Source of the DNA: an uncultured Pelagibacteraceae bacterium
GTDB lineage: Bacteria; Pseudomonadota; Alphaproteobacteria; Pelagibacterales; Pelagibacteraceae
Reading direction: 5' to 3'
DNA: 64,000 nt
Assembly: GCA_902538885.1 (NCBI GenBank)
Contig: CACBGU010000004.1
Coordinates: 1 to 64,000, forward strand
Both the position numbers and the translations under genes were made by a program. Each line of letters starts with the position of its first letter. Positions within the stretch are counted from its first letter, which is position 1. Below the pieces are notes generated by a model. That model had not been told where the DNA came from and searched no databases. It worked only from the letters and a program-made list of their open reading frames with translations. This document shows positions 55,997-64,000 of this stretch, in pieces.

Positions 55997-56335
55997 TTAA
56001 AACTTTTTCAAAGTAATCAATCCTGATTTAGGATCAATTATTTTTTCATTTAAAGTTGCAACTTTGCCAACATCAAAACCAGCATCTTCAATTACTTTTT
56101 TAAAGTCATCCTCAGAAAAATTAGGGGTATTCTCAAAGTTTATGAACGCAACTCCTTCTGGCCAGGAAACTTCAACGTTACCTTCTCCTGTTGCGGCTTT
56201 AAGCTCTTTTTCGACTTTGGCTTGGCAGGCCATACAAACCATGCCGTTAACAACGCCTATCATAGCAACTTCAGCTTTAGCTAAATTTTGTATGAATAAA
56301 GTTATAACTAAAATAGTAAAAAATATTTTTTTCAT
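55997..56335 (-). CDS. Exported heavy-metal-associated (HMA/MerP-like) domain protein
   Basis: Signal peptide; GVVNGMVCMACQAKVEKELKAATGEGNVEVSWPEGVAFINF. Confidence 0.8.
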   Translation of the reverse strand: MKKIFFTILVITLFIQNLAKAEVAMIGVVNGMVCMACQAKVEKELKAATGEGNVEVSWPEGVAFINFENTPNFSEDDFKKVIEDAGFDVGKVATLNEKIIDPKSGLITLKKF

Positions 56336-56378
56336 AATTGATAATTTACAATAATCACAAAAATTTATCTTTAAAAGA

Positions 56379-56393
56379 CCCCCATTTTGGGGC
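56379..56393. promoter_or_regulatory. GC-rich near-palindromic motif, site 1 (divergent HMA / pilin region)
   Basis: CCCCCATTTTGGGGC; TGTAAT starts 37 nt right of the centre and TGTAAA (minus strand) 36 nt left. Confidence 0.55.
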
Positions 56394-56463
56394 TTATGAT
56401 TATTTAACTTTTTGGCATTAGTTGTAATTTCTAAGCTTTGTTAACAAATAATTAAGGAGAGAA

Positions 56464-56967
56464 ATGAAAAAATTAAATACAAAAAAAGGTTTCTCATTAA
56501 TTGAATTACTTGTTGTAATTGCAATTATTGGAATACTTTCTGCGGTAGGTATTACTGCTTATTCTGGTTATACTGCGAGTGCAAAAGAGCAAGCTGCTAG
56601 AACGCAGTTTTCTCAAACAGTTAGCATGATTAATGCTGAAATGGCAAAATGTTCTGTTGGTACTGGCGATTTTGCTTGGGGTTCAGGATCACCTTGGGTG
56701 GCTGATACTTGTGCAGCTGCTATCGATGCCGACTCTGATACAAATATAGCTGCATACCTAACAAGCGAAACTAATGGTTTAGGTTATAAAAATCCGTATG
56801 CTCAAGATGAAGCAGCTGCTACTTATGCCAAAGCTGTTGCGAATGCTACAACTGATCCTGATGCTGACGGTAGAATAACTATATTCTGTGCTGCGGCCGG
56901 CGCTTGTACTATTAAACAAGATGTTGGTGATACTGTACTTTCACAAACTATAAATTCAGCAACTTAA
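56464..56967 (+). CDS. Type IV pilin / type II pseudopilin-like prepilin
   Basis: KKGFSLIELLVVIAIIGILSAVGITAY prepilin peptidase motif; C-terminal Cys pair; SD AAGGAGAG. Confidence 0.93.
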   Translation: MKKLNTKKGFSLIELLVVIAIIGILSAVGITAYSGYTASAKEQAARTQFSQTVSMINAEMAKCSVGTGDFAWGSGSPWVADTCAAAIDADSDTNIAAYLTSETNGLGYKNPYAQDEAAATYAKAVANATTDPDADGRITIFCAAAGACTIKQDVGDTVLSQTINSAT

Positions 56968-56980
56968 TATAAATTTTTAA

Positions 56981-57011
56981 TATAGGCGTATAAATGAAAT
57001 TATACGCCTAT
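56981..57011. terminator. Bidirectional terminator-like hairpin between convergent genes
   Basis: ATAGGCGTATAA-atgaaa-TTATACGCCTAT inverted repeat at the pilin/RsbW-like junction. Confidence 0.75.
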
Positions 57012-57430
57012 TTAATCTTTTTTTTCAACATAAGATGATTAGTCCACTTATTTGACTTCAAATACTTAATTTCATCCATTATTTGATTTATAAAGAAAGT
57101 ACCTAAGCCTCCTGGTTTTATATCATTCAGACTTCTAGGTTTAATTTTTTTCTTATTAATCTTAATACCGTTGTCATATAAGTGAATTAGAAATTTTTTA
57201 TTTTTAAATTCTAATTCAATTTTGATGATATTATTTTCATTTTCTTCCTTGTAAGAGTGTTTAATAATATTTGTGACAGCTTCATCAACTGCAAGCTGGA
57301 TATTTTTTATTATTTTTAAGTCTACTTCATAAATTTTGAGAAAATCTTTAATTGTAGCTCTTATTTTTTTAAGATTATTTAATGTTGCTGGATAAGATTT
57401 TTTCATTTGCTCAAGGTACTTAATTTTCAT
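57008..57430 (-). CDS. RsbW-like serine kinase / anti-sigma-type HATPase (true start possibly Met9)
   Basis: DEAVTNIIKHSYK (N box), HLYDNGIKIN (G1), PGGLGTFFINQIMDEIKY (G2). Confidence 0.85.
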   Translation of the reverse strand: MKIKYLEQMKKSYPATLNNLKKIRATIKDFLKIYEVDLKIIKNIQLAVDEAVTNIIKHSYKEENENNIIKIELEFKNKKFLIHLYDNGIKINKKKIKPRSLNDIKPGGLGTFFINQIMDEIKYLKSNKWTNHLMLKKKIK

Positions 57431-57460
57431 GATTATAAAAGAGTTTAAACTTAATGGTTA

Positions 57461-57473
57461 CCCAAAATGGGGC
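57461..57473. promoter_or_regulatory. GC-rich near-palindromic motif, site 2 (divergent RsbW-like / TPR-barrel region)
   Basis: CCCAAAATGGGGC; TATGAT starts 38 nt right of the centre; minus-strand TATAAT starts 29 nt left. Confidence 0.55.
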
Positions 57474-57524
57474 TATTGCATAAATTTTTTTTAGATTTAC
57501 ACGTATGATCAAATTTAAATCATC

Positions 57525-58832
57525 ATGAAAAATATTCAAATTAACAATTTTTACTTATTCGTTTTAATTTTTTTTTTTTATGTAGTTAGCGCCAATTCAC
57601 AAATCTCATTTGAACAAATTTTAAAAAATCCCAATGATTTAAAATTAAACTTAAAATATGCAAAAGAACAGGAAGATTTAGGGAATTTTAAGTCTGTAAT
57701 TTCCACACTTGAAAGATTAACAAGTTTATATCCAGAAAATGTTGATCTCAAAATGTATTATTTGTCTATTTCCTTGAGGATAGATTCTGTTGAGAGAACT
57801 ATACAGATAATTGATGAAATAAAGAACAGTGAACAATTAACAGCAGAAATTAACACTGAGATAGACATTATTTTACAAAATATAAATAACACTGCAAATG
57901 CAAATGAAAACAAATGGAATGGATATATCGATATATCTTTAAACCACACTTATCACACCAATATCAACAATTTATCAGATTCAGGAACTTTTTATGTTAG
58001 TGATTCTATTAGTAATTACGCAACTAACGAAATTGAAAACGATACATTAGAAATACCAAGTATTAGAATTGGTGGTTTTAAAAAACTGAGTGATAATTCA
58101 AATATCAATCTTAATATTGGATTGTCAGATACATATCAAAATAAAGACAAGTCAGAAGAGAAAGATTTAAATTCAGTATTTTTGAACTATAATTATTTTA
58201 AAGATAAAAATTTAATTAGCACAACTTTTAGTTTTAATAAATCTAATTACAGAAACCAAGCTGACATTAATACTATTAATTTTGGAGTAAGAGATAAATA
58301 TTCAATAAATAAAAACCATTTTTTAATTGGTGGGATAAATTATACAAAAAATACTTACAATCAGAACAATACCTTTTCCACAACTAAAGAAAAAAATAAT
58401 TATTTTGTATCTGGTAACATTGGTTATGAGTTTATTTTTTCCAGAAACAAATTTTTATTTGATTATAAAGATGGTGAGTCAAAGGCAATTGCTGATCAGT
58501 ATGGATATAAACAGGAAAAATATTTAATTAGTTATTTTAGATACTTTGATTTTGGAACACTCAATTTGAGCAAATCTTTTACAGAAAATGAATATGCAAT
58601 AGCAGATACATTTGTACTGTCAAATACTGTCCGAGATGATGAATTAGATACAACTTCAATTAGTTTAAATGGAGAATTGGTTAATTTATACTTCTTTAAT
58701 AAATTAAAATTTTTTGAGGATGTTTATTATAATCTTTCTTTTTCAAAAATTGATAGTACATCTAACATCTTAAATTATAATTATGAAAAAGAAATTCATA
58801 ATATAGGTTTAACTAAAAGGATAAACTTTTGA
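57525..58832 (+). CDS. Outer-membrane protein: N-terminal TPR region plus C-terminal beta-barrel (Slam-like architecture)
   Basis: Signal peptide; NPNDLKLNLKYAKEQEDLGNFKSVISTLERLTSLYPENVDLKMYYL helical repeats; alternating beta pattern ending in ...GLTKRINF with C-terminal Phe. Confidence 0.65.
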   Translation: MKNIQINNFYLFVLIFFFYVVSANSQISFEQILKNPNDLKLNLKYAKEQEDLGNFKSVISTLERLTSLYPENVDLKMYYLSISLRIDSVERTIQIIDEIKNSEQLTAEINTEIDIILQNINNTANANENKWNGYIDISLNHTYHTNINNLSDSGTFYVSDSISNYATNEIENDTLEIPSIRIGGFKKLSDNSNINLNIGLSDTYQNKDKSEEKDLNSVFLNYNYFKDKNLISTTFSFNKSNYRNQADINTINFGVRDKYSINKNHFLIGGINYTKNTYNQNNTFSTTKEKNNYFVSGNIGYEFIFSRNKFLFDYKDGESKAIADQYGYKQEKYLISYFRYFDFGTLNLSKSFTENEYAIADTFVLSNTVRDDELDTTSISLNGELVNLYFFNKLKFFEDVYYNLSFSKIDSTSNILNYNYEKEIHNIGLTKRINF

Positions 58833-60325
58833 AAAAAATATTTATAATAATTTTAATTTTACTTTTGCCTAGCAAACTTTTTGCTCAAAAACAGGTAATC
58901 GGTACTGTTACGTTAGCAATTGGAGAGGTTAAAACTAATGATAATAGAATCTTAAGTGCTGGGGATCCAATTTATTTTAACGATACTGTTATTGCAGGAG
59001 ATAATTCAAAATCTCAAATTATATTATTAGATGAAACTGTCATGATGATAGGAGCAGGAACAGAACTGATAATTGATGAATTTGTATTTAACCCTGAAGA
59101 CGTTGAAGGCAAAATTACAACCACAATCAAGCAAGGTAGTATCAAAGTTTTATCAGGTAAAATTAGTGAAACAAACCCTGAAGATTTAGTGGTAAAAACA
59201 CCTGCTGGAACTATTGGAACTAGAGGAACTGAATTTCAAGCGTTAGTGGATGAGGAGGATGGAGATAGTAAAATACTTCTAATTGGGCCCGGCCCAAATA
59301 ACACATTAGGATTAAGACCAGGAGAAGTTGAGGTTTTTAATCAATTTGGCAGCGTTATTTTAGATCAACCTTTTTTATTTACACAATTTACTCAAGATCA
59401 AGCTCCTCAAGAACCTATTATTATTTCAGAACAAGATTTTAACGATTTTGTAAGAATTCTTGAGGCAAGAAATGAAATTTCTGAAGATGAACAAATCCAA
59501 GAAGCTGTTAAAGAAGGACTTCTAATATCTGGAAAAGAAAGTGGTAGTGAATTAGTTGCTGAAGTAATTGATATCGTTTTAAAGAAGGAAGATGGGGGTG
59601 CAACAGCGGAAACTTTATCTGCAGCTTTAGGAGTAAGTGTAGAGGAGTTATTTGGTGAAGAATACAAAGAAGAATTTGAAAGCGAAAGTGAAGCAAATAA
59701 AATTGTAATTGCTAATGGTGAATTTGGTGATGCTGTTGCTATGATTACTAGATACGGTGGAACAGATCAGGGTAATTCTACTTATGCAGATCTTGCCGGT
59801 ATAGCATCAGGAACTTATACTTATCAAGCAACAGGTATTAATGGAGCAGCTGCTACAGGCTCAGGCAGTGGAACTATCGACTCAACTGTAGTGATTGACT
59901 TTGCTGCTAAAACAATTACTCAAACAGTTTCTGGAACAGTTGCTTTAGGATCAGATTCAAGCAGAACTTTTTCAGATATTTCAAAAGAGCATAGTTACAC
60001 AAGTTCATCATCAAATGTTGAAGCTGATCAAAATGTAATTATTGCAAGTAATGGGTCAGCATCTGCTGATAACACTAATTTTGCTGGAACTCCACAAGCA
60101 GCTGACTCTGATAATAAATCAGATTTTGTAGATAGTGGAACTAATTCATATTTTTTAAATAATGAATTTACTTCAAGCAATATTAAGCTTGGGTCAGGAA
60201 TAAATAATGATCCAATTGCATATGCTGGACATATGAATTTAGTTGTTGAAAATATAGACAATACAAACTCAATGGTTAATCAGTTAAGTTTTTCCAGAAC
60301 CGGAATTACACCAAAAAAAGATTAG
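58829..60325 (+). CDS. Exported FecR-domain protein with Gly/Ser/Thr-rich beta-type C-terminus (TTG start)
   Basis: Signal peptide; VKTPAGTIGTRGTEFQALV FecR core; C-terminal SGSGTIDSTVVIDFAAKTITQTVSGTVAL and SSNIKLGSGINNDPIAYAGHMNLVVEN. Confidence 0.8.
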   Translation: MKKIFIIILILLLPSKLFAQKQVIGTVTLAIGEVKTNDNRILSAGDPIYFNDTVIAGDNSKSQIILLDETVMMIGAGTELIIDEFVFNPEDVEGKITTTIKQGSIKVLSGKISETNPEDLVVKTPAGTIGTRGTEFQALVDEEDGDSKILLIGPGPNNTLGLRPGEVEVFNQFGSVILDQPFLFTQFTQDQAPQEPIIISEQDFNDFVRILEARNEISEDEQIQEAVKEGLLISGKESGSELVAEVIDIVLKKEDGGATAETLSAALGVSVEELFGEEYKEEFESESEANKIVIANGEFGDAVAMITRYGGTDQGNSTYADLAGIASGTYTYQATGINGAAATGSGSGTIDSTVVIDFAAKTITQTVSGTVALGSDSSRTFSDISKEHSYTSSSSNVEADQNVIIASNGSASADNTNFAGTPQAADSDNKSDFVDSGTNSYFLNNEFTSSNIKLGSGINNDPIAYAGHMNLVVENIDNTNSMVNQLSFSRTGITPKKD

Positions 60326-60341
60326 ATTTTTATTCTATCTG

Positions 60342-60357
60342 CCCCCCCCATTTTAGG
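60342..60357. promoter_or_regulatory. GC-rich motif, site 3 (upstream of the second FecR gene), degenerate right half
   Basis: CCCCCCCCATTTTAGG; TGTAAT starts 37 nt right of the aligned centre, as at site 1. Confidence 0.45.
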
Positions 60358-60401
60358 TAGTATTATTGAAAACTTCAAACATTTAGATTGTAATATGAGC
60401 C

Positions 60402-61079
60402 ATGTTTAAAAATATTAGTAGAAGACAGTTTTGTAAATGTTGTGGATCAATTTTTCTATCAACTTTTATTGTTAATTTTGCAAAAGCAAATTCAGATAAA
60501 AATCAATTAATGTATGGTAACATTGTTGTTAATGGTAAAAAAATAAATGAAAATTCACAAATTAATTTTGATGATTTAAGTGAAGTGGAGACTAAAAGTG
60601 AATTGGCGTTTATACAAAATAATCAAAATGGTTTTTTAGTTAGACCAAATTCCAAGTTAAAGTTTTTTAAAAATAAAATCCAAGAACTTTTAAAAGGTAG
60701 CGTCCATGGAGTGTTTGGAAAACAATCTTCAGAACTACAAATAAAAACACCTAGAGGAACTATTGGAATAAGAGGAACAGTAACATATATCGAATATGAG
60801 GAGAGTTACGATAGAACTTATGTTTGTAACTGCTATGGAAATACAGTGATTTATAATTCAAAAATGCAAGAATTAAAAAATCTTAATAGCAAGTATCATT
60901 CCCCTGTAGTAATAGATAAAAATCAAACAATAAAAGCATCACCATATGGTATTCCATTGAACCATTATGATGATAATATCAAATCTATTGAAAATAAATT
61001 AGGAAGAAAACCAAGATGGAAATTACCAGAAGGTAAAATGATATTTTTTGCACCTACAAATGAAAAAATAAAAATTTAG
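60402..61079 (+). CDS. FecR-domain protein with Tat-like signal
   Basis: ISRRQFCKCCGSIFLSTF twin-arginine-like N-terminus; IKTPRGTIGIRGTVTYIEYE FecR core; YVCNCYGNTVIY CxC. Confidence 0.8.
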   Translation: MFKNISRRQFCKCCGSIFLSTFIVNFAKANSDKNQLMYGNIVVNGKKINENSQINFDDLSEVETKSELAFIQNNQNGFLVRPNSKLKFFKNKIQELLKGSVHGVFGKQSSELQIKTPRGTIGIRGTVTYIEYEESYDRTYVCNCYGNTVIYNSKMQELKNLNSKYHSPVVIDKNQTIKASPYGIPLNHYDDNIKSIENKLGRKPRWKLPEGKMIFFAPTNEKIKI

Positions 61080-63059
61080 GTGAATAGAAAATTTCTAAGT
61101 TTAATAATCATCAGTATTTTAATTGTAGTTTATAATTTTGAAACCAATATAAAAAAAAGAATTGGATTTATTAACTATGATTATTTTCAAACTTTATTTG
61201 AGGAAAATTTTTCTACTAACAAGATTGTTATTATTGATATTGATGAGACAAGTATTGAGAATATTGGTCAATTTCCTTGGAGGAGAGATGTCTATTCTAA
61301 AATATTAAATAATCTAAATTTAGCAGAAACCTCGGTTATAGCATTTGATATTTTTTTCAGTGAAGAAGATACTCAAAACCCAACAAAAATTTTTCAGGAA
61401 TTTAACTTAAATAGTGAAAACATTTTAAATAGTGATCAATTGTTTTTAGAGTCAATTAATAATAATAATGTAATCTTACCATTAGTAGGTGCCACTAAAG
61501 AGATAAAAAAAAATAAATTTTCCTCTAAAGCTAATATTATTACTAAAGGTGAAAATCCTTTAAACTACTTATATAATTATCAAGGATATATTTCATCTCT
61601 TGATAAATTTAATAATGCTGCAAAAGGCTTAGGCTCAATATCAATTATAGATAGTGAGGATGGTATATTAAGATACGTTCCATTAATTTTAAATATAGAT
61701 GAGAAAATAATTCCCTCTTTATCATTAGAAACAGTTAGACTGCACAATAAAGAAAAAAGCTATCTAATCCAAACAGATCAAAGCGGTATTAAATCAATTC
61801 AAACAAGAACTACAAATTTTAATATAAATGAAAATGGATTAAATTTTGTAAAATTCAAAAAAATTCCTAAAAACACTTACATCTCAGCATCAGATATTTA
61901 TCAAAATAATTTTGATCAAGAAGCATTAAAGGACAAAATAGTTTTGATAGGATCTTCTGCAGAAGGGGTTTTTGATTTAGTAAAGATCCCTACAGGCAAG
62001 ATTGTTCCTGGGGTTCAAGTTCATGCAAATATAATTGAAAATATATTATCTAAAGATTTTTTAAAAATTAATTACTTAACTAAAATTACAGAAAATATTG
62101 TTTTATTAATAAGTTTGCTAGTAGTCTTGATTATAGCTAATTACTTTAAACCAATATATTCAATTTTGAATTATGCTATTTTATTACTACTATTATTTTT
62201 GATAAGTATTTTGTTTTATAAACAAAACTATTTTGTAGAAATTTATAACATTATTCTATTTAACTCATTATTATTTATATATCTCCTATATTCCAGATTT
62301 GTTGAAGAAAATAAATCTTCAATTGAAAATGAGAAAAAACAATTAGTTTTAAAAAAAGAGAGAGAAATTGCCGGAGAGGTACAAAAGAAATTATTTCCAA
62401 CTGAAAAAAATATTGAGAATTTTGTTTATGCAAAAAACATACCAGCAAGAGATGTGTCAGGAGATTATTATGATTATATCAAAGTTTCTGATGATGAAAT
62501 TTATTTTACTTTAGCTGATGTATCTGGCAAAGGTATTAAGGCTGGAATGTTGATGGCTAATGCGTCTTCAGTATTTAAATCTTTTTCAAAACTAAAGTTT
62601 CCAATTAATCAACTTGCTCAAAATATTAATAATCAAGTAAAAGAATCGTCTTATAAAGGCATGTTTATTACAGCAGTAATAGGTAAGTTAAATATAACTT
62701 CTAAGGAGGTTGAATTTGTTAACTTTGGTCATGAAAGCATCATGTGTTTTGAAAAAACATCTAATTCATTTTCTTATATAAAAGCTGAAAAACCGCCTTT
62801 AGGACTTCTGAACATTAAAGATGCAAACACAATAAACACTAATAAATTAAACTTAAATGACAAAAATATATTTATTTACACAGATGGTGTTACCGAAGGC
62901 TACATTGAAGACGAGAAGGAGTTTACTGTTAAAGGGATAGAAGATGAAATATTAAAAAATAAATCTTCTAATATTAAAGAAATTATTGAAATAATTACAA
63001 ATAAGCTAAACAACAGAGAATATCTCAGAGATGATATCACAATGATGGGTTTACAATAA
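61080..63059 (+). CDS. CHASE2 sensor + TM + SpoIIE/PP2C-type serine phosphatase (GTG start)
   Basis: IIDIDETSIENIGQFPWRRDVYSKILNNL...IAFDIFFSEED (CHASE2); three TM helices; EREIAGEVQKKLFP...ARDVSGDYYDYIKVSDDEIYFTLADVSGKGIKAGMLMAN (SpoIIE). Confidence 0.92.
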   Translation: MNRKFLSLIIISILIVVYNFETNIKKRIGFINYDYFQTLFEENFSTNKIVIIDIDETSIENIGQFPWRRDVYSKILNNLNLAETSVIAFDIFFSEEDTQNPTKIFQEFNLNSENILNSDQLFLESINNNNVILPLVGATKEIKKNKFSSKANIITKGENPLNYLYNYQGYISSLDKFNNAAKGLGSISIIDSEDGILRYVPLILNIDEKIIPSLSLETVRLHNKEKSYLIQTDQSGIKSIQTRTTNFNINENGLNFVKFKKIPKNTYISASDIYQNNFDQEALKDKIVLIGSSAEGVFDLVKIPTGKIVPGVQVHANIIENILSKDFLKINYLTKITENIVLLISLLVVLIIANYFKPIYSILNYAILLLLLFLISILFYKQNYFVEIYNIILFNSLLFIYLLYSRFVEENKSSIENEKKQLVLKKEREIAGEVQKKLFPTEKNIENFVYAKNIPARDVSGDYYDYIKVSDDEIYFTLADVSGKGIKAGMLMANASSVFKSFSKLKFPINQLAQNINNQVKESSYKGMFITAVIGKLNITSKEVEFVNFGHESIMCFEKTSNSFSYIKAEKPPLGLLNIKDANTINTNKLNLNDKNIFIYTDGVTEGYIEDEKEFTVKGIEDEILKNKSSNIKEIIEIITNKLNNREYLRDDITMMGLQ

Positions 63060-63255
63060 ATGTATATAGTAAAATTAACCCAGTAATTGTAATAAATAAT
63101 TTTTTTCTAAACAATTTTTTTTCTATTTTCTTTGAGTGCAAATTATTTAGTAGTCTATTGATATCCATTTTTTTTGATTGAGAACTAAAATTTTTATTAA
63201 TAACAATCTCATGCCAATTTTTATTTTTAAGTAAGGATTTTTGTATATTATCCAT
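63037..63255 (-). CDS. Small single-TM protein overlapping the pilT stop
   Basis: C-terminal TM LFRKKLFITITGLILLYTFIV; ATG abuts/overlaps the pilT stop, suggesting translational coupling. Confidence 0.6.
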   Translation of the reverse strand: MDNIQKSLLKNKNWHEIVINKNFSSQSKKMDINRLLNNLHSKKIEKKLFRKKLFITITGLILLYTFIVNPSL

Positions 63256-64000
63256 TATTCCACCAAACCTTTTTGCTGAAGTCCCTCTAGATATTTTTCC
63301 ATCGTAATCATTCCATCTTGTGCCGAGGTTTGGAGAGTTGAGGTGATTTGAGCCATTTTACCCTCTCGAATAAGATTTCTTATTGCTGTAGTTCCCGTCA
63401 TAACCTCAAAACAGCCAATTCTTCCACCACCTTTTTTTTTTAAAAGTTGTTGAGACAAAACCATTCTAATTGATCCAGCTAGCATAGATTGTGCTAATGT
63501 TTTTTGTGAAGGAGGAAAAACGTCTAAAATTCTTGTAACAGTTGATGAGACGTTACTTGCATGCAGAGTACCAAAAACTAAATGACCAGTTTCTGCAGCT
63601 GTTAAGGCAAGAGAAATAGTTTCAAGATCTCTCATTTCTCCTACTAAAATTACATCTGGATCTTGTCTTAATGCCGACTTCAAAGCTCTTGCAAAGCTTC
63701 CAGTATCTTTTCCAACTTCTCTTTGTGAAATAATACTTTTTTTAGATGGATGAACAAATTCGATAGGGTCTTCAATTGTAATAATATTTTCTGCACGATT
63801 AGAATTTATTTGATCAATCATTGCTGCCAAAGAAGTAGATTTACCAGATCCTGTCTGACCTGTGACTAGTACTAATCCATTTTTATGCTTGATAGCGTCC
63901 ATAACAGCAGGAGGTAGACCAAGTTTTTCCATTTGTGGTATCTCGCTAACAATTTTTCTTAGAACCATACTTGGTCCGATAGCAGTATAATATCCGTTTG
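63255..64000 (-). CDS. pilT: Type IV pilus retraction ATPase PilT (N-terminus beyond right edge)
   Basis: GQTGSGKSTSLAAMID Walker A; VGEMRDLETISLALTAAETGHLVFGTLHA; TAIRNLIREGKMAQ (AIRNLIRE PilT motif); frame continues to window end (GYYTAIGPSMVLRKI). Confidence 0.93.
   Translation of the reverse strand, partial: NGYYTAIGPSMVLRKIVSEIPQMEKLGLPPAVMDAIKHKNGLVLVTGQTGSGKSTSLAAMIDQINSNRAENIITIEDPIEFVHPSKKSIISQREVGKDTGSFARALKSALRQDPDVILVGEMRDLETISLALTAAETGHLVFGTLHASNVSSTVTRILDVFPPSQKTLAQSMLAGSIRMVLSQQLLKKKGGGRIGCFEVMTGTTAIRNLIREGKMAQITSTLQTSAQDGMITMEKYLEGLQQKGLVE

Follow-up and report, generated by a model that had tools for sequence, protein, structure and literature searches.

The described systems closest to the one reported here include two bacterial partner switches. 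In Nostoc punctiforme, the HmpU phosphatase, the HmpV STAS protein and the HmpW kinase are required for hormogonium development and motility, and the STAS protein is thought to provide the output in place of a sigma factor (PMC6495340, PMC8256260). The RbaV/RbaW/RbaY proteins of Rhodobacter capsulatus form an alphaproteobacterial switch for which no cognate sigma factor has been identified and in which the STAS protein is the determinant regulator (PMC3999984). The present analysis concerns a 64,000-nucleotide stretch of DNA, in the following referred to as the window (contig CACBGU010000004.1, positions 1 to 64,000), from an uncultured SAR11 bacterium of the family Pelagibacteraceae, and in particular the genes at positions 55,997 to 64,000. 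We propose, at a probability of roughly 0.6, that these genes belong to a sigma-independent partner switch located in a SAR11 type IV pilus locus, which would take in envelope signals and control an adhesive pilus.

The SAR11 trio, which is likened to HmpUVW by function and not by orthology, differs from it in lying in and around a pilus locus, in possessing a CHASE2 membrane sensor with FecR and TPR-barrel partners, and in its alphaproteobacterial host lineage. With respect to the Rba switch, RbaY contains a REC domain and not CHASE2, and the switch acts on the production of gene transfer agents and on viability in stationary phase; CHASE2 is not mentioned in that paper, and in its available part a link to pili was not seen (PMC3999984). 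A FecR protein adjoining a CHASE2 sensor is also found in the BiofilmReg operon of Burkholderia, which encodes a CreB-type regulator, a LysM-FecR protein and a CHASE2 histidine kinase and is associated with a biofilm phenotype (PMC5192318), but its output is a histidine kinase with a response regulator instead of SpoIIE, RsbW and STAS proteins, and the operon lacks pilus genes. In coastal SAR11 (Pelagibacteraceae), an adhesin gene is reported to lie in every case beside genes for type IV pili, type II secretion or both (PMC12636525), and autotransporter genes were likewise present in relatives' loci in this analysis; the terms SpoIIE and FecR do not occur in the main text of that study. No description of the present system was found in the open-licence literature on SAR11 combined with partner switching, SpoIIE or CHASE2. 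The original prediction, which had been made from the sequence of the window, had termed the system a candidate for an undescribed one; the parts belong to known families and make up a known kind of switch, and it is their arrangement with a pilus locus that appears to be unreported.

The same prediction had regarded the interval from 55,997 to 64,000 as a separate, contiguous system. Gene calls along the contig, which runs on past the window end (64,000) to 92,487 in an assembly of 1.0 Mb that is 74% complete, showed this block instead to be the leftmost part of a type IV pilus locus, about 24-25 kb long, that extends past the window. The genes that had been named (prepilin, RsbW-like protein, TPR-barrel protein, two FecR proteins, CHASE2-SpoIIE protein, small membrane protein and PilT) were all recovered by gene calls and family matches, although the interval starts with a divergent gene outside this set (55997-56335). 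The closest locus found, L070 (JADHQW010000074.1), encodes a CHASE2-SpoIIE protein with 67% identity. The features of the locus are as follows:

55997..56335, (-) strand: heavy-metal-associated (HMA) periplasmic protein (Pfam HMA 6.4e-06), with the same neighbour in L070
56464..56967, (+) strand: PilA-like major-type type IV prepilin (N_methyl 2.1e-08; IV_pilin_GFxxxE above cut-off)
57008..57430, (-) strand: RsbW-like serine kinase of the HATPase_c_2 type (PF13581 1.2e-22)
57525..58832, (+) strand: protein with a TPR domain and a 14-strand outer-membrane beta-barrel, as predicted by an AlphaFold2 model
58829..60325, (+) strand: FecR-domain exported protein 1, FecR1 (PF04773 2.8e-09)
60402..61079, (+) strand: FecR-domain protein 2, FecR2, with a twin-arginine-like N-terminus (PF04773 4.5e-05, barely over the cut-off)
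61080..63059, (+) strand: CHASE2-SpoIIE protein, a membrane sensor with a PPM phosphatase domain (PF05226 1e-49; PF07228 1e-29)
63037..63255, (-) strand: open reading frame of 72 amino acids with a single transmembrane segment, without family match
63255..64000, continuing to contig position 64247, (-) strand: PilT retraction ATPase, 330 amino acids in full (TIGR01420 2.3e-106, above cut-off)
contig 80253-80552, outside the window: single-domain STAS protein (TIGR00377 above cut-off)

The genes beyond the window were read in contig positions 63000-82999 (locus L018). They encode the full-length PilT, two small helix-turn-helix (HTH) proteins, a LysR regulator, four PilX/W/V/FimT-like minor pilins and MshI/J/K-like proteins. 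Further along the contig come the secretin, PilB, PilC, PilD as prepilin peptidase and a coiled-coil membrane protein, and the STAS protein lies at the far end of the locus. Since this STAS partner lies outside the window, the circuit is fuller than the window reveals.

The phosphatase, the kinase and the STAS protein are, by their sequences, a complete partner switch of the RsbU/RsbW/RsbV type with intact catalytic residues. The SpoIIE domain, the sole PF07228 match in the assembly, contains the metal-binding aspartates of the DVSGD, DVSGKG, YTDG and RDD motifs, which were invariant in 61 sequences. The RsbW-like protein is a serine kinase consisting of HATPase_c_2 alone and has both the N-box and the G-box; the N-box Glu/Asn and the GGLG box were invariant in 35 sequences; it matched the RsbW model PRK04069 (2.9e-17) below the equivalog cut-off, and its nearest solved structures are RsbW (6m36) and SpoIIAB (1til). 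The STAS protein, again the sole PF01740 match in the assembly, carries a DSSG motif with a phosphorylatable serine that was invariant in 49 sequences, and its closest solved structure is TM1442 (1sbo).

A classical switch, in which RsbW would sequester RpoH or another sigma factor until the STAS protein frees it and the pilus would be one target of an envelope stress response, is consistent with RsbW and SpoIIAB as the nearest families and solved structures of the kinase, with the match of the STAS protein to anti-sigma antagonist models and with the presence of an RpoH-like sigma factor. The RpoH-like protein, however, occurs just as well in G009 and G004, two genomes in which RsbW and STAS were not found, and in the sister-family genome G037. 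The locus itself yielded no sigma gene and the complete genome G012 no extra sigma factor, and a cognate alternative sigma factor of the SigB/SigF branch was found neither in the window genome (G000) nor in G012. RbaVW, the alphaproteobacterial precedent, likewise yielded no cognate sigma factor (PMC3999984). In a search for FecI/FecR/FecA iron signalling, the FecR domain was present but a sigma factor of the extracytoplasmic function type was not found. When ten genomes with and without the module, including the complete G012, were tested, the sigma factors detected in the genus were all RpoD-like or RpoH-like, and therefore an output via a dedicated sigma factor is unlikely; the classical switch as a whole is improbable in our estimation.

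The association of the sigma-independent switch with the pilus was assessed with 67 SAR11 loci that were retrieved by means of the CHASE2-SpoIIE gene, and the 38 loci with at least 9 kb of upstream sequence were used for the counts. For the scans of genome contigs an alignment served as query, a single window protein having given no match. A pilus gene was present in 37 of the 38 loci and a TPR-barrel gene together with a FecR gene within 2.5 kb of the CHASE2-SpoIIE gene in 34, and RsbW, STAS, PilA and PilC genes were each present in 30. The usual order in SAR11 starts with PilB-PilC, followed by RsbW and STAS in the opposite orientation, PilA-PilA, in some loci a gene for an ammonium-transporter domain fused to SpoIIE (Amt-SpoIIE), and then TPR-barrel-FecR-CHASE2-SpoIIE. 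In most loci the RsbW and STAS genes are thus neighbours, flanked by pilC and pilA, and precede the last-named group by a few kb. Additionally, SpoIIE was present in 22, the secretin in 18, RsbW in 15 and STAS in 14 of 37 same-genus genomes. Fisher tests of their co-occurrence gave p values of 2.9e-5 for SpoIIE and secretin, 2.1e-5 for SpoIIE and RsbW, 8.7e-8 for secretin and RsbW and 2.5e-9 for RsbW and STAS, with values up to 7e-5 in the tests among these four. The switch genes and the pilus genes are accordingly gained or lost together in SAR11. A lack of such co-conservation had been set beforehand as grounds for abandoning the predicted system; the TPR-barrel, FecR, CHASE2-SpoIIE, RsbW and pilus genes turned out to be co-conserved across SAR11. 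The core of the predicted member list was retained, whereas the small membrane protein and the second FecR protein proved to be lineage-specific. FecR2 occurred only in L070 among 80 loci searched. The 72-amino-acid open reading frame is not conserved in L070, in which the gap between the CHASE2-SpoIIE and PilT genes of about 60 bp leaves no room for it, so that it was dropped from the conserved system, outside of which it probably lies.

Several observations weigh against the proposed control of an adhesive pilus by the switch. What points to this control is genomic neighbourhood and co-occurrence, and the Fisher values ignore shared ancestry and genome incompleteness. In the complete genome G158, the CHASE2, TPR and FecR genes are located about 545 kb from the cluster of pilus, STAS and RsbW genes, so that the predicted block is conserved in SAR11 but not always contiguous. 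The secretin was detected in G013 and in three sister-family genomes in which neither SpoIIE nor STAS was found. The Lectin_C signature of a minor pilin of the window genome was below the curated cut-off. Finally, pilus genes were not detected near the module in the stretches read of five loci of non-SAR11 Alphaproteobacteria (L137, L191-L193 and L198), and the pilus is not the sole possible output of the module. The loci outside SAR11 and the arrangement in G158 would fit a general envelope-stress switch that happens to be encoded in the same accessory island as the pilus and the adhesins, the island being gained or lost as a whole without any regulation, and it is also true that all parts are accessory within the genus. 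On the other hand, most SAR11 lineages have their RsbW and STAS genes among the pilus genes, the pilus cluster of G158 retains RsbW, STAS and another SpoIIE gene in spite of the distant CHASE2-SpoIIE gene, and a palindrome is common to pilus and switch promoters in the window genome. A mere island of this kind is hence fairly unlikely. The single signalling circuit for surface structures that had been predicted was corroborated in so far as the STAS protein completes the switch, whereas its control over the pilus continues to be an inference.

Full-length CHASE2-SpoIIE proteins were detected in a minority of 289 alphaproteobacterial genomes. In the non-SAR11 loci L191, L192, L193 and L198 the genes for STAS, CHASE2-SpoIIE, FecR and RsbW are grouped. 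Because these groups occur in loci without detected pilus genes, FecR and CHASE2-SpoIIE are tied to RsbW and STAS independently of pili. SAR11 appears to have joined this module to a pilus, the evolutionary direction being deduced from this distribution. A compact set of STAS, metallo-hydrolase, CHASE2-SpoIIE, OmpA, FecR and RsbW genes was observed in L137 (8436-13876), which also belongs to a non-SAR11 alphaproteobacterium.

According to the sigma-independent scheme that we favour, the CHASE2-SpoIIE protein in the inner membrane would read the state of the periplasm, probably relayed by the neighbouring FecR-domain protein and the TPR-barrel outer-membrane protein. The active SpoIIE domain would dephosphorylate the STAS protein at its DSSG serine, which the RsbW-like kinase would rephosphorylate. 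The balance between STAS and phosphorylated STAS would decide which partner is bound by the kinase or the STAS protein, and this choice would determine how far the adhesive type IV pilus, along with the surface proteins associated with it, is expressed or active. The STAS protein, or the free kinase, probably acts on a target other than a sigma factor, as has been suggested for Nostoc HmpV and Rhodobacter RbaV. In the sub-lineage of the window, the palindrome may coordinate transcription of the locus, probably bound by a locus-encoded HTH protein. In this scheme we infer the signal, the phosphotransfer, the direction, the target and the binder of the palindrome.

A wider version of the sigma-independent switch is put forward tentatively, in which one RsbW kinase and one or two STAS proteins of the pilus locus receive input from as many as three sensor phosphatases, so that several sensors decide when SAR11, supposedly passive plankton, build the adhesive pilus; CHASE2 would report on the envelope, the ammonium-transporter fusion on ammonium and a GAF-containing phosphatase on an internal ligand. 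The Amt-SpoIIE gene of L052 (16928-19081, (+) strand), which is found in many SAR11 pilus loci, combines a full ammonium-transporter domain (PF00909 1.4e-113) with SpoIIE (PF07228 4.8e-34), and its product is likely to be an ammonium-sensing phosphatase. An ammonium-transporter fold is similarly fused to a signalling domain in Ks-Amt5, the ammonium sensor histidine kinase of Kuenenia (PMC5764959), the output of which is a kinase and not a phosphatase. The Amt-SpoIIE gene was not seen in the assembled part of the window genome.

A single locus encodes PilB, PilC, PilD, PilT, the secretin and prepilins, which identified the pilus as type IVa-like. PilT exceeded the NCBIfam cut-off, and PilB, PilQ and PilC gave strong matches, yet under the curated cut-offs. 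A strict mannose-sensitive haemagglutinin (MSHA) pilus was rejected, as MshL (TIGR02519) scored 107 bits against 250 required, and judged from sequence the locus is MSHA-like in gene order only. Type IV pili serve DNA uptake in many bacteria, and PilT, the secretin and prepilins are type IV pilus parts, so that a DNA-uptake machine with the switch as competence regulator has to be considered; the long lysine-rich tails of many relatives' FecR proteins, with possible DNA binding, would be in line with it. A ComEC homologue, however, was found in none of 61 genomes by a search that was positive in 10 of 14 controls, and adhesin-type genes are present in relatives' loci. Owing to the lectin-like minor pilins, the autotransporters of relatives and the ComEC result, an attachment pilus is more likely than a DNA-uptake pilus, and a competence function is very improbable.

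Among the minor pilins, Laminin_G_3 was detected above the cut-off in G012. Large minor pilins with sub-threshold C-type-lectin-like signatures are encoded by L018 (3870-5705, (-) strand) and L051 (5919-11648, (-) strand), the latter with an additional ConA-like lectin domain. Autotransporter-type adhesins with PF03797 and nine PATR repeats were noted in L053 (3905-6385, (+) strand) and L050 (11422-16776, (-) strand), in or beside relatives' pilus loci.

The AlphaFold2 model of the TPR-barrel protein, with a predicted local distance difference test (pLDDT) score of 82, comprises helices at residues 29-127 and 14 long strands at 132-434. Its fold matches in the PDB were OmpG (TMt 0.70-0.76), CymA and BcsC, while its profile gave no match to PDB sequences. 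The protein resembles BcsC in that a barrel in the outer membrane follows a periplasmic TPR domain, an architecture also present in the exporters PgaA and Slam. It differs from BcsC and Slam in the absence of a significant match to either family in Pfam and NCBIfam and in its 14 strands, OmpG and CymA being the nearest barrels. An assignment as Slam or type XI secretion protein was dismissed, given that no Slam family of these databases matched. FecR1 has a signal peptide recognized by eye, a FecR domain at residues 52-149 and a long C-terminal part beyond it; the mean pLDDT of its model was 42, and the FecR domain alone was modelled with some confidence. The impression by eye that the C-terminal part is a Slam-substrate barrel was given up, as the model is below 50 pLDDT there and nothing is claimed for it. 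FecR1 orthologues of most SAR11 (L079, L075, L084 and about 30 others) possess a very long, lysine-rich, histone-H1-like tail that the version in the window lacks.

The DNA motif predicted to be shared by three intergenic regions of the block is real, and it corresponds to a palindrome, CCCAWWWTGGG, that is present at six promoters of the locus:

56380..56391: motif site 1 (CCCCAAAATGGGG), between the HMA and pilA genes, 44 nucleotides from the HMA start and conserved at the orthologous place in L070
57461..57472: motif site 2 (CCCAAAATGGGG), in the divergent RsbW/TPR-barrel region
60346..60357: motif site 3 (CCTAAAATGGGG), 44 nucleotides before the FecR2 start
contig 64738: site upstream of HTH1
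contig 71385: site upstream of the divergent FimT/MshI operons
contig 80197: site upstream of the divergent coiled-coil/STAS genes

The distance between palindrome and start codon is 43-44 nucleotides in six genes, namely HMA, FecR2, HTH1, FimT, STAS and the coiled-coil gene, and at site 2 (RsbW-TPR region) L070 carries the variant CTCAAAATGAG, in which the symmetry is retained. A scan of the window allowing two mismatches found 4 sites versus 3.1 expected, which alone is not significant. With at most one mismatch, 6 of the 13 distinct sites of the 1.0 Mb assembly fell within the locus of about 24 kb, the pattern having been derived from three of these six. The five best L070 matches of a position weight matrix trained on the six sites were the HMA-PilA, RsbW-TPR, FecR1-FecR2, HTH1-HTH2 and HTH2-LysR intergenic regions, a placement with a probability of about 1e-6 were the matches random. 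Assembly-wide clustering in the locus and the matrix placement in L070 thus indicate that the palindrome is beyond chance. A check of nine further relatives' loci gave no occurrence of it. Close homologues of HTH2 were present only in the window genome and L070; because the palindrome and HTH2 are co-distributed in these two, HTH1 or HTH2, for which no convincing Pfam family match was obtained, is the likely binder. An interpretation of the motif as an RpoH -10-type element (CCCCAT) was set aside, as a -35 partner at the usual spacing was not seen by eye. Inspection by eye of window positions 56335-60402 and contig positions 64693-80253 revealed, in six locus genes, a -10-like sequence of the TGTAA or TATAAT type about 11-16 nucleotides before the start codon. 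This arrangement suggests that the transcripts are leaderless and that the palindrome immediately precedes the promoter.

SAR11 bacteria are among the most abundant bacteria of the ocean and are known for possessing few regulators. Attachment has not been observed in SAR11, although there are sightings of pilus-like filaments and records of genes for pili and adhesins (PMC12636525). If the proposed switch controls an adhesive pilus, part of the SAR11 population would regulate surface attachment, with candidate genes named here; the partner switches that lack a dedicated sigma factor would gain an alphaproteobacterial example, and Amt-SpoIIE fusions would join the likely ammonium-sensing phosphatases. 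As a minor observation at the edge of the locus, the product of the HMA gene is CopZ/MerP-like, the pilA promoter region is common to this gene and pilA, and the two genes are adjacent in L070 as well.

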